This document shows positions 35,979 to 64,000 of a DNA stretch of 64,000 bases, piece by piece. Position numbers and translations under genes: made by a program. Positions within the stretch are counted from its first letter, which is position 1, and each line of letters opens with the position of its first letter. This stretch comes from Pelagibacteraceae bacterium AG-414-M23 (GTDB lineage Bacteria > Pseudomonadota > Alphaproteobacteria > Pelagibacterales > Pelagibacteraceae), in contig QCLN01000005.1 of the NCBI GenBank assembly GCA_003214525.1, positions 18,186 to 82,185 on the forward strand, in the 5' to 3' direction. The notes beneath the pieces are model-generated. The model was given only the letters and a program-made list of their open reading frames with translations, was not told where the DNA came from and did no database searches.

Positions 35979-36242
35979 ATGTCAAAACAAGAACAACATT
36001 GGGATAAAACTAGGAATTTGCTTTTTATTACATTGGCAATCTGGTTTGTGTTCTCAATAGGCATCTTTCTCTTTGGAGCTGAAATGGAAGCATCTAGCTT
36101 TAGACCTCTTGGATACCCTCTATCTTATTATATGACATGTCAAGGATCACTGGGAATTTTCGTAATACTAATCTTTTGGTTTGCGGGAAGACAAGAAAAA
36201 ATAGATGAAGAATTTGGCTTCTCTGAAAGAGAGGATGACTAA
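35979..36242 (+). CDS. DUF4212 small subunit of sodium:solute symporter
   Basis: HWDKTRNLLFITLAIWFVFSIGIFLFGAEME, next to the SSS gene. Confidence 0.88.
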   Translation: MSKQEQHWDKTRNLLFITLAIWFVFSIGIFLFGAEMEASSFRPLGYPLSYYMTCQGSLGIFVILIFWFAGRQEKIDEEFGFSEREDD

Positions 36243-38063
36243 ATGATTAAAGGTAAATTTATAGATAATTTGCCACAAGTTTATGGATTATATACAGGAG
36301 GTTTCCTTGTATTCATAATCTTAATGGCAATAGCAGAACAAGCAGGAATGTCAGCAAAATTGATAGGTATCTTTTTCGTTGCTTTCACTGTTGGTATCTA
36401 TGCAATAATTGGATGGTTATCTCGTACACTTCAAGTAGATGCGTATTACGTAGCAGGAAGACAAGTTCCTACTGTATTTAATGGAATGGCGACTGCAGCA
36501 GACTGGATGTCTGGTGCATCATTCGTTGCAATGGCAGGTGGAATTTATTTTAAAGGCTACGGATATATGGCGCTTCTAGTTGGATGGACAGGTGGATATG
36601 TATTAGTTGCTTCGCTTCTAGCACCTTACCTAAGAAAATTTGGATGCTACACAGTTCCAGATTTTATAGGAACAAGGTATGGTGGAAACCTAGCAAGATT
36701 ATCTGCTGTACTAGTACTAACGGTTGCTTCATTCACTTATGTGACGGCACAAATTAACGCGACAGGAACTATTGCATCAGTTGCATTAGATATTCCATTT
36801 GGAATAGCTGTCTACGTTGGATTAGCAAGTATATTAATGTGCTCGATGCTTGGTGGAATGAGAGCGGTTACTTGGACACAAGTTGCTCAATACATCGTAT
36901 TGATTATAGCATACTTATTACCTGTATTCTGGATCAGTAATAAAATGGGTGCTGGTGTATTTCCACACTTAATGTTAGCTGATGAAGTTGCTAGAATTGC
37001 TGAGTTAGAAGCTCAGTTTGGCTTAGGAACTGTTAAAAACACTGCAGCTGATTTAGCTACAGTTCCAAAAGGCTTAGCAGGTATAACTAAGGCTCACTCT
37101 TCAGTGAATGCAACACCTTGGGCATTTATTTCATTAGCGGTTTGTATGATGGCTGGAACAGCATCATTACCTCACGTTATGATGAGATACTTTACTACTC
37201 CAAGTGTAAAAGCAGCTAGAAGATCAGTAGGTTGGTCACTATTCTTTATTTTCCTACTTTATTCTTCTGCGCCTATGTTAGCTACTTTATCAAAACTATC
37301 ATTGATGGATCCAACCCTGGCAACAGGAATTATTGGTAAATCAATATCTGAAGTTCAAGCACTAGACTGGTACCAAAACTGGAACCAAGCAAACTTAATG
37401 TTTGTTAGCGACTTTAACGGAAATGGAACTCTAGACTTAAATGAGTTTTTCATGGGTGGTAAAGCCGTTGTGTTAGCAACTCCAGAGATCGCTGGATTAC
37501 CTTATGTAATTTCAGGATTAGTTGCTGCCGGAGGTATGGCTGCTGCCATGTCTACTGCGGATGGTTTAGTTTTAGCAATTGCAAATGCTTTATCTCATGA
37601 CTTGTACTACAAGATTATTGATCCTAAAGCAGAAACTGCAAAAAGATTAATTGTTGCAAGGGTATTACTTGTAATAATTGGTTTTGCTGGAGCAACAATT
37701 GCAGCTCTTGAGATTCAAGGCATCTTAGGTTCAGTTATATGGGCTTTTGACTTTGCGATGTCAGGATTGTTCTTCCCACTTGTATTAGGTGTATGGTGGA
37801 AGAGAGCAAATGCACAGGGTGCTGTTGCAGGTATGCTTGTTGGATTAGCTGTTGGTACTTGGTACTTAATTCATGTACGAACAGGTGGAACTCCAATATG
37901 GGGTGTAACTCAACTTACATTCGGTATACATGGAGCTTTAGCTAGCTTAGTGTCAATGGTTGTTGTTAGTTTAGCGACTAAAGCGCCAGACTCTGCTACT
38001 CAAAAGATGGTAGATGAGGTTCGTATTCCAAGTGGTAAAACAGTACTTGGTAAACAACACTAA
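36243..38063 (+). CDS. Sodium:solute symporter (VC_2705/ActP-like)
   Basis: YYVAGRQVPTVFNGMATAADWMSGASFVAMAGG, GTASLPHVMMRYFTTPSVKAARRSVGWSL, GLVAAGGMAAAMSTADGLVLAIANALSHDLY. Confidence 0.93.
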   Translation: MIKGKFIDNLPQVYGLYTGGFLVFIILMAIAEQAGMSAKLIGIFFVAFTVGIYAIIGWLSRTLQVDAYYVAGRQVPTVFNGMATAADWMSGASFVAMAGGIYFKGYGYMALLVGWTGGYVLVASLLAPYLRKFGCYTVPDFIGTRYGGNLARLSAVLVLTVASFTYVTAQINATGTIASVALDIPFGIAVYVGLASILMCSMLGGMRAVTWTQVAQYIVLIIAYLLPVFWISNKMGAGVFPHLMLADEVARIAELEAQFGLGTVKNTAADLATVPKGLAGITKAHSSVNATPWAFISLAVCMMAGTASLPHVMMRYFTTPSVKAARRSVGWSLFFIFLLYSSAPMLATLSKLSLMDPTLATGIIGKSISEVQALDWYQNWNQANLMFVSDFNGNGTLDLNEFFMGGKAVVLATPEIAGLPYVISGLVAAGGMAAAMSTADGLVLAIANALSHDLYYKIIDPKAETAKRLIVARVLLVIIGFAGATIAALEIQGILGSVIWAFDFAMSGLFFPLVLGVWWKRANAQGAVAGMLVGLAVGTWYLIHVRTGGTPIWGVTQLTFGIHGALASLVSMVVVSLATKAPDSATQKMVDEVRIPSGKTVLGKQH

Positions 38064-57619: not shown

Positions 57620-58218
57620 TCAAAATTCCTTAAATAATCTTTAATTTTCTTAACTGGCAAACCCATAATTGTGTCTTCATCTCCTTCTATACTAGAAAAT
57701 AAAGATCTTCCTTCCCCTTCAATTTGATAGACATTATAAGAATATAAAGCGTCATCGTTTATTTTTGATAAATAAGTTTTGAGCTGACCTTCTGAAAATT
57801 TTTTCATTTTAAGCATAGCTTTATCTGTGTAATTCCAAATCATAGAGCCGTTTTTTGCTATAGTAACAGAGCTAATTAGAAAATGCTCTTTGCCATTTAA
57901 TTTTTTAAGTATTTCTAATGCTTTATCTCTATTTTGAGGTTTAGAAATAATTTCATTATCCAAATCAATTACACTGTCGGCTCCAAGAACTAATTTCTCA
58001 TGATGTAAATTGCTTATTTTTGTTGCTTTTACTTCTGCTAAATTTTTACTAATTATTTCTGGAGATGCTCCTTCTTTAATTAAACTCTCTTTAATTATTT
58101 CTTCATCAACGTTTGGAGCAATCACTTTACATTTAATATTATTTTTTTCTAAAATGTCTTTCCTAACTTTACTTTTGGAAGCTAAAATTATTTTATTTTC
58201 TGTTGGAGAATATTTCAT
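57616..58218 (-). CDS. maf: Maf family nucleotide pyrophosphatase
   Basis: IILASKSKVRKDILEKN, VLGADSVIDLDNEIISKPQNRDKALEIL, IEGDEDTIMGLPV. Confidence 0.95.
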   Translation of the reverse strand: MKYSPTENKIILASKSKVRKDILEKNNIKCKVIAPNVDEEIIKESLIKEGASPEIISKNLAEVKATKISNLHHEKLVLGADSVIDLDNEIISKPQNRDKALEILKKLNGKEHFLISSVTIAKNGSMIWNYTDKAMLKMKKFSEGQLKTYLSKINDDALYSYNVYQIEGEGRSLFSSIEGDEDTIMGLPVKKIKDYLRNFE

Positions 58219-59017
58219 ACATTTTTATTACTGATGCCGCTGTTTCTTCTACTGATTTTCTAGTTACATCTATCATGGGCCATTGATACTTTTTGAATGT
58301 GATTCTTGATTCTTCTATCTCATTTTGAATAGTTTCTAGATTAGTATATTGAATGGTTTCCTGTTCTTTAATTGTTGTAAGTCTATTCTTTCTAACATCG
58401 TAAAGTCTTTTTGGCTCCGCTATAAGACCTACTATACAGCAGACTTTGGGATTTTCTTTTAATTTTTCTGGGATTGAGCTGTCGTCAATAAGTGGAATAT
58501 TTGAAGTTTTATATCCTCTGTTTGCTAAATAAATTGAAGTTGGCGTTTTGCTTGTTCTACTTACTCCTAATAAAATAATATCGGATTTGTGCACATCTTT
58601 TCTTAAATTTCCATCGTCGTGATTAATTGTAAATTGTATGGCCTCAATCCTTTTATAATAGTCCTCATTCAACGCATGTTGGCCGCTTGGAACATGTGTT
58701 GCTTTCTGATTTAAAAGTTTTGAAAAATTAAGAATTAAATCACCTAACACTCCAAAACAAGGTATGTTTTTTTTGTTTGCTTCTTGTGATAAATATTTAG
58801 CAAGTTTATTATCTACAATTGTATATAGAATTATAGAATTTTTTTTTTTTTTTGCTTCTTCTAATATTTTTAATATTTGATTTTCTGTTCTAGTAAAAGA
58901 ATAATGAAATAGGCTCTGTTCAAAATTTTTAAACTGGGCTTTTAATGCCATAAATATTCTTTCCAAAGTCTCGCCCGTTGAATCAGAAATTAAATAAATA
59001 TTATATGTATTTTTCAT
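58193..59017 (-). CDS. Kinase/pyrophosphorylase (PPSR/PDRP, DUF299)
   Basis: IYLISDSTGETLERIFMAL, LLGVSRTSKTPTSIYLANRGYKTSNIPL, IDVTRKSVEETAA. Confidence 0.96.
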   Translation of the reverse strand: MKNTYNIYLISDSTGETLERIFMALKAQFKNFEQSLFHYSFTRTENQILKILEEAKKKKNSIILYTIVDNKLAKYLSQEANKKNIPCFGVLGDLILNFSKLLNQKATHVPSGQHALNEDYYKRIEAIQFTINHDDGNLRKDVHKSDIILLGVSRTSKTPTSIYLANRGYKTSNIPLIDDSSIPEKLKENPKVCCIVGLIAEPKRLYDVRKNRLTTIKEQETIQYTNLETIQNEIEESRITFKKYQWPMIDVTRKSVEETAASVIKMYEIFSNRK

Positions 59018-59290
59018 GTATTAACTTTATGTTATTTGGACAAAATCTGCCTTATTTTGCAAAACTATAAAATTATTAAATTTTACAATTAGTTATTAAC
59101 ACATTTAAACAAGTAAAAAAAAATATATTAATAGTTAGAAAATTGTTAATTTTAAATAAAAATATAAGTAAATTAATTGTTTTATGACAATATTATTGTT
59201 AACAAAAATGTGGAAAAAGTTGTATGAATTTTAATCCAACTTAATAACAGGGTAATAATATACAAATATAAAACTATTTATTTATTTAAT
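59018..59290. other. oriC: Candidate chromosomal origin of replication (oriC)
   Basis: Very AT-rich divergent gap between DUF299 and hemE, the position of the Caulobacter/Rickettsia origin; DnaA-box-like TTTTCCACA (59209-59217, minus), TTATTAACA (59093-59101), TTGTTAACA (59196-59204). Confidence 0.7.
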
Positions 59291-60292
59291 ATGGGCATTC
59301 TTAAGGATTGTATAAATAATAACAATATTGACTCTATTCCTATATGGTTTATGAGGCAGGCAGGAAGATATTTACCTGAGTTTAGAGAGATAAGATCTAA
59401 AAACCCAAATTTTGTAGAACTGTGTTTAAATCCAAAAATTTCTAAAGAAATAACACTTCAACCATTAAAACGTTTTTTGTTTGATGCTGCAATTATATTT
59501 TCTGATATTCTTTTAATACCTTATGCTTTAGGACAAGATTTAAAGTTTGAAAAAAACTTTGGCCCAAAACTTGGAAATTTAAATCTAGAAAATATTCTTA
59601 ATATATCTGATAAAGAAATTTTAGAAAAATTAAAACCAGTATATAAACTTATAGATATTACATCTAAAGATAAAATTTTAAAAAATAAAGATTTAATTGG
59701 TTTCATTGGGGCTCCATGGACATTACTGGTCTATATGGTTAATCAGAAATCACCAAAAAAAACATTAAACACAGATATTTACAAAAATGTTAATAATAAA
59801 TATTTATTAGAGAAAATTATTTATACACAAAAATTACATATAAAAAATCAAGTAGAGAGTGGAGCAACTATAATTCAAATCTTTGATAGTTGGGCAGGTT
59901 TATTGGAATATAAGTATTATGATAAATATATTTATAACCCAACACAAGAACTTGTAAATTATGTTAAAAGTTTAAATGTAGAGGTTATTTGTTTTCCAAG
60001 AGGAATAAATTGTTATAAAGAATATTGTGACATTGTTAAACCAAATGTAATCAGTATTGATTATGAAGTAGACCCAGCTTTAATTGCAAAAGAAATTAAT
60101 ATTCCAATTCAAGGTGGATTAGATCCTAAATTTTTATTACTAGATAAAAAAGAAATGTTGATAAAAGCTAAAAAATATTTAGAGACATTCAAAAATCATC
60201 AATATATATTTAATTTAGGACATGGAGTTCTCCCAGAAACTAACCCAGAAAATGTTAAAATATTAGTAGAATTTGTTAAGGATTTTAAATGA
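59291..60292 (+). CDS. hemE: Uroporphyrinogen decarboxylase
   Basis: IPIWFMRQAGRYLPEFREIR, FSDILLIPYALGQ, FIGAPWTLLVYMV, NLGHGVLPETNPENV. Confidence 0.97.
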   Translation: MGILKDCINNNNIDSIPIWFMRQAGRYLPEFREIRSKNPNFVELCLNPKISKEITLQPLKRFLFDAAIIFSDILLIPYALGQDLKFEKNFGPKLGNLNLENILNISDKEILEKLKPVYKLIDITSKDKILKNKDLIGFIGAPWTLLVYMVNQKSPKKTLNTDIYKNVNNKYLLEKIIYTQKLHIKNQVESGATIIQIFDSWAGLLEYKYYDKYIYNPTQELVNYVKSLNVEVICFPRGINCYKEYCDIVKPNVISIDYEVDPALIAKEINIPIQGGLDPKFLLLDKKEMLIKAKKYLETFKNHQYIFNLGHGVLPETNPENVKILVEFVKDFK

Positions 60293-61284
60293 ATGATAAT
60301 CACCCAAAAATAAATTTTGGAAAAACTGGAGTTTTGTTAATTAATTTAGGAACACCAAATTCTACAAGTTGGTGGGACATACGCATGTATTTAAAAGAAT
60401 TTTTGTCCGACAGAAGAGTAATAGAAGTAAATCCATTTATATGGCAAATTATTTTAAATTTATTTATATTAACATTTCGTCCTTCAAAAACTGCAAAAGC
60501 TTATAAGGAAATATGGATGAAGGATGTTAATAAATCACCTTTAAGATTTTATACAGAAATACAAACAGAAAAACTTAATAAAAAAATTAATAAAGATAGT
60601 TTAATCATTGATTTTGCTATGAGATATGGAAATCCAAGCATTAAAAATAAAATTAAAAGTTTACAAAAAAAAGGTTGTGAGAAGATAATAATTTTTCCTC
60701 TCTACCCCCAGTATGCTTCACCAACAACAGCTACGGTTTGTGATGAAGTGTATAGAGTATTAATGAAAATGAGATGGCAGCCAACAATACAGATAATACC
60801 ACATTACGAGTCTGAACCGCTATACATCGATGCTCTTGTGAACAGTGTAAATAAAAAATTAAGTAGTATAGATTGGAAACCAGATTTAATTATTGCATCG
60901 TATCACGGTATTCCAAAAAAATATTTTGAAAAAGGAGATCCGTATCATTGCTATTGTCAAAAAACCACAAGATTAATTTCAGAAAAATTTAATAAAATTA
61001 ATATAATTACAACTTTCCAATCAAGATTTGGACCAGAAGAATGGCTTCAACCTTATACAGACAAAACCCTAGAAAAATTGCCTAAAGAAGGAATTAAGAA
61101 AGTTTTAGTGATAACGCCAGGATTTGCTTCAGATTGTGTAGAAACACTTGAAGAAATATCTATCCAAGGAAGAGAAAGTTTTGAAAAAGCAGGAGGAGAA
61201 AAGTTTGGATTTATTCCGTGCCTTAATGATAATGACGACCATATATCTCTTTTAGAATACCTTGTTGTAAAGAATTTAAATTAA
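60289..61284 (+). CDS. hemH: Ferrochelatase
   Basis: GVLLINLGTPNST, FPLYPQYASPTTATV, IASYHGIPKKYFEKGDPYHCYCQKT, FQSRFGPEEWLQPYT. Confidence 0.97.
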   Translation: MNDNHPKINFGKTGVLLINLGTPNSTSWWDIRMYLKEFLSDRRVIEVNPFIWQIILNLFILTFRPSKTAKAYKEIWMKDVNKSPLRFYTEIQTEKLNKKINKDSLIIDFAMRYGNPSIKNKIKSLQKKGCEKIIIFPLYPQYASPTTATVCDEVYRVLMKMRWQPTIQIIPHYESEPLYIDALVNSVNKKLSSIDWKPDLIIASYHGIPKKYFEKGDPYHCYCQKTTRLISEKFNKINIITTFQSRFGPEEWLQPYTDKTLEKLPKEGIKKVLVITPGFASDCVETLEEISIQGRESFEKAGGEKFGFIPCLNDNDDHISLLEYLVVKNLN

Positions 61285-63068: not shown

Positions 63069-63920
63069 TTAACCTATATAATTTAACTCCCTCATTTCAT
63101 TTGAAAAATTATCTTCAATTTCTTTAATTGTTGCTTGGTCGAGAATATCCTGCCATCTATTTTTCGGTCCGAGACTAAAAAATTTTATTTTTTTCTCTTC
63201 TCTTTTATCATGCACTGACTCTGAGAATTTTCCACTTTTTTCTAATTGTTGCAAAGATTCAAAAGAATTTGAATTAATAGAATTATTAATTTTTTGAATA
63301 TCAAATTTGAGTCCTGTTAATTTTGAGACATAATTAGCTATCTCGTTAAATTTTTCATTTGGATTTTTAATTAAATCCTCATATCTGACTAATAAATAGT
63401 TATTAGTTTTATTTTTCCAAGAATTGTAATGATTTTTCCAAGAACTTAATGGAGTTGGAATTTGACCTCCACTTCTATTATCCTGTTTTGTTAAATCTAG
63501 CCATGTATCATTATTAAATAAAAATTTTATTGCACCACTTATATCTGAAAATGAATAATGATTTTTAATTGAAGTGATCACATTTCTAGGGTCTCTAACA
63601 ACATGAATTACACCGAGAGAATTTTTATGATTGGTAAAATTACAATTATTTATAGTACAATTCATGTGGTGTGTTTTAAAAAATTTAATTTCACCATCCA
63701 AATTAATTATTTCTTGAGCCTTAATCCAATTTACAGCTAATTCGTTGATATCCTTAAAATCTTTAATTAAGTTATCAAATTGAGGTTTGGTTGGAAATTG
63801 TTTGATATTTTTTAAGGTTGAAAAATCGTTTTCACCGCTTTTGCTATACAATAGCGTACTTAAAAAAGATCTAACCCAAGTGTTTCCACTTTTAGGATAA
63901 GAAGCAATCCATATAATCAT
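63069..63920 (-). CDS. Sulfotransferase domain protein (PAPS-type)
   Basis: IWIASYPKSGNTWVRSFLSTLL (5'-phosphosulfate loop), VIHVVRDPRNVITSIKNHYSF (3'-phosphate-binding region). Confidence 0.9.
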   Translation of the reverse strand: MIIWIASYPKSGNTWVRSFLSTLLYSKSGENDFSTLKNIKQFPTKPQFDNLIKDFKDINELAVNWIKAQEIINLDGEIKFFKTHHMNCTINNCNFTNHKNSLGVIHVVRDPRNVITSIKNHYSFSDISGAIKFLFNNDTWLDLTKQDNRSGGQIPTPLSSWKNHYNSWKNKTNNYLLVRYEDLIKNPNEKFNEIANYVSKLTGLKFDIQKINNSINSNSFESLQQLEKSGKFSESVHDKREEKKIKFFSLGPKNRWQDILDQATIKEIEDNFSNEMRELNYIG

Positions 63921-63975: not shown

Positions 63976-64000
63976 ATGACAATTTACGCTCTTTCATCAG
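63976..64000 (+). CDS. mnmE: Start of tRNA modification GTPase MnmE (truncated by window end)
   Basis: MTIYALSS matches the conserved MnmE N-terminus; downstream of rho, as near the origin in other alphaproteobacteria. Confidence 0.65.

Follow-up and report, generated by a model that had tools for sequence, protein, structure and literature searches.

The divergent arrangement of ppsR and hemE in a SAR11 genome raises the question of whether the gap between these genes is the site at which the chromosome begins to be copied. The gap lies in a 64,000-nucleotide stretch of DNA from Pelagibacteraceae bacterium AG-414-M23, referred to here as the window, which ends where its contig ends; the whole assembly is 1.10 Mb in 38 contigs. 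A sequence-only reading had placed a candidate chromosomal origin (oriC) between the DUF299 gene ppsR and hemE, and this placement is now supported by box conservation, corrected skew and parS in relatives. Taken together, the evidence indicates that the gap is almost certainly where this SAR11 bacterium starts chromosome copying.

The gap and its DnaA boxes

As had been described, an AT-rich non-coding gap separates two diverging genes, and its coordinates (59018–59290) proved exact. The flanking genes, hemE (PF01208) and a COG1806 gene (PF03618), are those expected of an alphaproteobacterial hemE-linked origin. In the proposed gene row, maf, aroE, coaE and dnaQ on the left and hemH, hemJ and rho on the right were all identified by Pfam, but mnmE is present only as its probable first codons (ATG at 63976) at the contig end, and an unlisted sulfotransferase gene lies between rho and that start. 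This sulfotransferase-domain gene (63069–63920, minus strand) interrupts an otherwise rightward row. Elsewhere in the window, the GC content of positions 36001–38000 is 0.389, well above that of the remainder. The features of the locus are as follows.

58193–59017, minus strand: ppsR (DUF299/COG1806, Kinase-PPPase; Pfam PF03618, E = 9e-88), left flank, read away from the gap
59018–59290, no strand: ppsR–hemE intergenic gap, almost certainly oriC; 273 bp, 84% AT, length kept in family f1 and sister family f2
59066–59165, no strand: thermodynamically weakest 100 bp of the gap (nearest-neighbour energy, 99.99th percentile of the window)
59093–59101, plus strand: DnaA box of class 2, TTATTAACA, perfect; class present in 37 of 67 gaps, box invariant in 7/7 own-clade genomes
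59103–59111, plus strand: weak tandem box ATTTAAACA, in 10-bp phase from box 2; the two together form a 19-bp stretch, the longest without variation in the own-clade alignment
59144–59152, minus strand: possible weak box AAATTAACA, suggested by the invariant stretch ATTGTTA (59142–59148)
59197–59205, minus strand: degenerate DnaA box TTGTTAACA at the class 4 position, −94 from hemE, as class 4 in 23 gaps
59209–59217, minus strand: own-clade-specific DnaA box TTTTCCACA; TTTTNCACA in 7/7 own-clade genomes
59221–59229, minus strand: possible weak box ATTCATACA, spaced 12 bp from the box at 59209–59217, suggested by TGTA (59221–59224), which is invariant in the own clade
59241–59249, plus strand: eroded DnaA box TTAATAACA at the class 6 position, −50 from hemE, exactly where 44 gaps have boxes of the TTATTMACA type
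59252–59260, minus strand: DnaA-trio-like repeat, 5′-GTA ATA ATA-3′ on the plus strand and 3′-CAT TAT TAT-5′ on the minus strand; TAATAATATA invariant run, NTA register in family f1
59291–60292, plus strand: hemE (Pfam PF01208, URO-D, E = 2.5e-86), right flank, read away from the gap

The three 9-mers originally claimed are all where they were said to be, at 59093–59101 (TTATTAACA), 59196–59204 (TTGTTAACA) and 59209–59217 (TTTTCCACA). Because TTGTTAACA is palindromic, the plus-strand match at 59196–59204 is also the minus-strand box at 59197–59205. The box at 59241–59249, the tandem partner at 59103–59111 and the trinucleotide repeat at 59252–59260 had been missed. Box counts in the window's gap were compared with chance expectations simulated from an order-2 Markov model of the same sequence. 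TTATNMACA occurs once against 0.29 expected (P = 0.26), which is not above chance, and the looser TTWTNMACA twice against 0.6 (P = 0.12); exact TTATNCACA does not occur in this gap. Since its boxes are not above chance, the window alone cannot carry the claim of an origin. With 41% of the bacterium's own genome read, the gap ranks 2nd, 10th or 24th by position weight matrix (PWM), depending on the threshold. In the approximately 458 kb read for TTATNMACA, the densest stretch at the scale of 1.0–1.5 kb is 59093–60533, to which we give little weight because hemE and hemH contain four of its five sites, none of them common to relatives. These perfect matches (59788–59796, 59821–59829, 60156–60164 and 60525–60533) are absent from relatives and may be due to chance.

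A clearer picture of the window's gap was obtained from its own clade, defined by a DNA search of the genus as the window genome plus six close relatives. Of the columns in the resulting seven-genome gap alignment, 44% do not vary. The longest invariant run, TTATTAACACATTTAAACA (59093–59111), comprises box 2 and its weak partner, and the maximum in 2,000 column permutations was 14; the second longest, TAATAATATA (59253–59262), falls within the DnaA-trio-like repeat. The hemE-proximal box is TAATTCACA in five of the seven genomes and has eroded to TTAATAACA in the window, and the sequence of the box at the class 4 position is variable within the clade. Therefore, as a box cluster, the window's own gap is distinguished by position and clade conservation only, and not by counts. 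The suggestion of a reduced origin in a streamlined genome holds in part: the own clade does have fewer perfect boxes, but most SAR11 gaps hold two to four (range 1–6).

Conservation of the gap across SAR11

The family f1 sample comprised 78 gaps, including one Candidatus Fonsibacter record, of which 67 remained after the removal of near-duplicates. The ppsR–hemE gap is 261–289 bp long throughout the gaps sampled, and further gaps fetched later (270–285 bp) are in line with this range. In sister family f2, the corresponding maf–hemE gap is 271–281 bp. In the f2 records (L247–L262 and L266), the gene next to the gap is maf instead of the missing ppsR, the length is nearly the same and several members carry CTA runs beside hemE. 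In L178, one of two non-SAR11 freshwater metagenome records, a BolA-like gene, read from its translation, lies to the left of the hemE gap, and the other record, L172, looks similar; both hold three boxes at roughly SAR11 positions, which in L178 match the distances of classes 1, 2 and 5. The L178 record is titled Rickettsia typhi, a doubtful name for a freshwater-type metagenome bin.

In a pattern-free enumeration of the 67 gaps, with counts compared with Markov shuffles, the 9-mers showing the strongest enrichment were TTATTCACA (43 versus 1.5 expected) and TTATTAACA (83 versus 7.35 expected). The pattern TTATNMACA occurs 198 times in these gaps against approximately 17 expected; it had been picked after viewing an alignment that included the closed relative G082, and the later k-mer enumeration recovered it without that choice. 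Most boxes fall into classes of fixed position and orientation across gaps: a minus-strand box near ppsR, a plus-strand box at ~84 and a minus-strand box at ~103, followed, counting from hemE, by minus-strand boxes at −94 and −72 and a plus-strand box at −50. Over the 250 bp that precede hemE, boxes reach a density of 9.8 per kb, versus approximately 0.2 per kb outside the gap. In closed G082 (1.44 Mb), no other 270-bp window is as rich in boxes as the gap, which has four compared with two in the runner-up and is also the top PWM window. Thus, a box cluster in an AT-rich intergenic region is found across SAR11, and the expectation that the 9-mers would be kept in SAR11 relatives is borne out across the gaps.

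The same 9-mers could instead be promoter or regulator sites in a gap that is merely the shared divergent promoter region of ppsR and hemE. Two divergent genes must have promoters in the gap, and the alignment suggests that the trio stretch could overlap the −10 element of hemE. However, sigma-70-like matches numbered 7 versus 4.7 ± 2.5 in shuffles, and a scan for promoters and terminators returned no matches above shuffles. The boxes are of the DnaA type, lie on both strands throughout the gap and are densest there in a whole closed genome. Moreover, the gap keeps its length and some of its geometry in relatives that carry maf or a BolA-like gene in place of ppsR, and a promoter region would leave skew and parS unexplained. 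We consider this explanation improbable, with only a small chance of being correct.

Replication skew and parS in relatives

In many bacteria, oriC lies beside dnaA, and the most obvious alternative position for the true origin is next to that gene, about 60 kb away. SAR11 genome alignments in one study begin at dnaA (PMC12421898). Two closed relatives were used to compare these positions: G082, which was read whole, and G012, of which about half was sampled. Raw cumulative GC skew had been expected to reach its minimum at the gap; in G082 it has a minimum plateau at approximately 875–945 kb that includes the gap (910.4 kb), but its absolute minimum, at 940 kb, is 30 kb from the gap and lies between it and dnaA. 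The plateau is too broad for the raw skew to be used by itself, and the GC and AT skews at fourfold sites in G082 gave no usable signal.

Orientation-corrected skew was obtained with a change-point model on GC skew at codon position 3. In G082, the best origin is at 900–910 kb; the gap is worse by 0.8 lnL and dnaA (971 kb) by 7.8 lnL. The 900-kb cell was chosen in 55 of 60 bootstraps, and no permuted data approached the observed fit. In G012, the fit is best at 1.27 and 1.31 Mb, with the gap (1.262 Mb) 0.9 lnL and dnaA (1.199 Mb) 4.9 lnL below; the signal in this half-sampled genome is weak (ΔLL of 11.7 versus a permuted maximum of 8.9). The leading/lagging skew switch is thus found at or near the site in both relatives, within approximately 10 kb of the gap in G082 and approximately 50 kb of it in half-sampled G012. 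The earlier reading had named a skew pointing to dnaA as evidence against an origin in the gap; corrected skew in both closed relatives instead favours the gap and disfavours dnaA.

The chromosome partitioning site lies on the hemE side. G082 has a single perfect parS, 7.2 kb from hemE with parB beside it, and every other candidate in that genome has more than two mismatches; in G012 the best parS site, with one mismatch, is approximately 7.2 kb from hemE, again with parB beside it. Among the parS matches listed, which were not selected by position, parS lies 7.2–13.5 kb downstream of hemE in 54 of the 54 genomes with both on one contig; three listed genomes had hemE and parS on different contigs. 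Proximity to parS/ParB, a property of hemE-linked origins, is therefore found in relatives. In the window's own assembly there is no parS or ParB match; parS is lacking on its contig, which stops 4.7 kb beyond the gap on the right, too soon to include such a site. We infer that the skew switch and parS proximity computed in relatives carry over to this fragmented genome. With parS and parB on the hemE side, the corrected skew worse at dnaA in both relatives and the densest windows of G082 including no cluster of boxes close to dnaA, an origin beside dnaA or elsewhere has a very slight chance of being correct.

Box clusters can also titrate DnaA without initiating replication, as datA does in E. 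coli, and the gap could be a DnaA-titration or DnaA-regulated cluster of this kind instead of an initiation site. The gap coincides with the skew switch and parS and carries a trio-like element beside a box, features that a titration site would not require, and we judge this reading to be as highly improbable as an origin at dnaA.

A trio-like repeat and the proposed initiation mechanism

DnaA-trios have the consensus 3′-GAT-5′ with a conserved middle A, follow a spacer averaging 4 bp and are loaded 3′→5′ away from the box (PMC8287927, PMC6669920). In family f1, the first four triplets starting four bases past box 6 match NTA in 58, 49, 40 and 54 of 65 gaps. The mean NTA fraction over six triplets in this register is 0.62; the two adjacent registers give 0.03–0.13, and shuffles do not exceed 0.24. 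In family f2, CTA runs occupy the trio position, with three to five CTA repeats (3′-GAT-5′) in several members. In the own clade the register is shifted and comprises three trio triplets. Three or more NAN trinucleotides lie within 16 bp of a DnaA box, and relatives show a strong register; for the window's own gap, this statement holds only with the SAR11-specific box, because the box beside its repeat has one mismatch to TTATTAACA but three to TTATCCACA. The least stable 50-mer has no one shared place among relatives' gaps, and no single unwinding element can therefore be named from stability alone.

In each genome tested, dnaA is intact with the usual domain IV signature, and the residues of this domain that we take to be recognition residues look intact. 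Each also has a gene for a short Hda-like protein, which falls below the family cut-off, and three HU/IHF-family genes.

The hemE/COG1806 flanks and the site criteria of Caulobacter crescentus Cori and the Rickettsia prowazekii ori have been described (PMC1914354), and the SAR11 gap resembles these origins in its hemE and COG1806/DUF299 flanks, AT richness and DnaA boxes. By contrast, the SAR11 gap is shorter (273 bp versus ~380–404 bp), its boxes are mostly TTATTAACA/TTATTCACA, and CtrA, IHF and GANTC sites are not enriched. CtrA sites (TTAA-N7-TTAA) are absent from the own gap and number 74 versus 55 expected over the 67 gaps; IHF sites, by the consensus given in PMC1914354, are likewise absent from the own gap and number 13 versus 26 expected over the 67 gaps; GANTC sites show no enrichment in gaps. 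According to one report, ctrA is absent from Pelagibacter (PMC2877005); another paper, in wording garbled in print, gives SAR11 as an exception to the conservation of CcrM (PMC3973325). Given these site counts, the SAR11 origin should not be filed as a CtrA-controlled Cori. The origins of Wolbachia, Ehrlichia and Anaplasma retain hemE while the other flank changes, giving hemE/COG1253 (PMC1914354). Similarly, hemE is constant and the other flank varies (maf, BolA-like) in the relatives considered here; however, SAR11 family f1 keeps ppsR (COG1806), and boxes and length differ. The opening region resembles the basal origin unwinding system of Bacillus subtilis in having a box, a 4-nt linker and middle-A trinucleotides running 3′→5′ away from the box, and the 3′-GAT-5′ repeats of several f2 members resemble B. 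subtilis trios. In comparison with B. subtilis, family f1 has fewer trios, mostly 3′-TAT-5′/3′-GAT-5′ mixes, the own clade has three in its shifted register, and the SAR11 origin is not beside dnaA. The locus is of a known kind, a hemE-linked DnaA-type oriC that lacks the CtrA, IHF and GANTC sites seen in Caulobacter.

The locus, the box conservation and geometry, and the trinucleotide register are computed results, and DnaA binding, a trio that serves as the opening site and helicase loading are inferred. In the proposed mechanism, DnaA-ATP would bind the TTATTMACA-type boxes in the gap and spread from the hemE-proximal box onto the trio-like repeat, 3′→5′ on the minus strand towards hemE. 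The AT-rich DNA would then melt at the repeat beside hemE, and helicase would be loaded for two outgoing forks, with which the flanking genes, transcribed away from the origin, would be co-directional. We consider it very likely that the gap is an oriC that works in this way. The origin location is the one anticipated from relatives, and a comparison of approximately 70 of them reveals the layout, with DnaA-binding sites at fixed positions and, beside hemE, a repeated trinucleotide as the predicted opening motif. A published description of the SAR11 oriC layout was not found in the open-licence literature; DoriC may hold a predicted entry. More tentatively, SAR11 might have an orisome class of its own, a proposal that we hold to be possible but rather doubtful. 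In such a class, DnaA would accept A at box position 6 (TTATTAACA being commonest), and the origin would combine fixed box positions, a near-constant gap and trio opening by hemE with no CtrA, IHF or GANTC sites; the window's clade would have been remodelled to weak tandem boxes in 10–12-bp phase and a shifted trio register.

SAR11 bacteria are among the most abundant groups in the ocean, and growth estimates from metagenome coverage depend on the position of the origin. With the origin defined, its boxes numbered and an opening site predicted, direct tests become possible. The SAR11 origin also illustrates a possible route to initiation in bacteria reported to be without the CtrA and CcrM cell-cycle control of other alphaproteobacteria.
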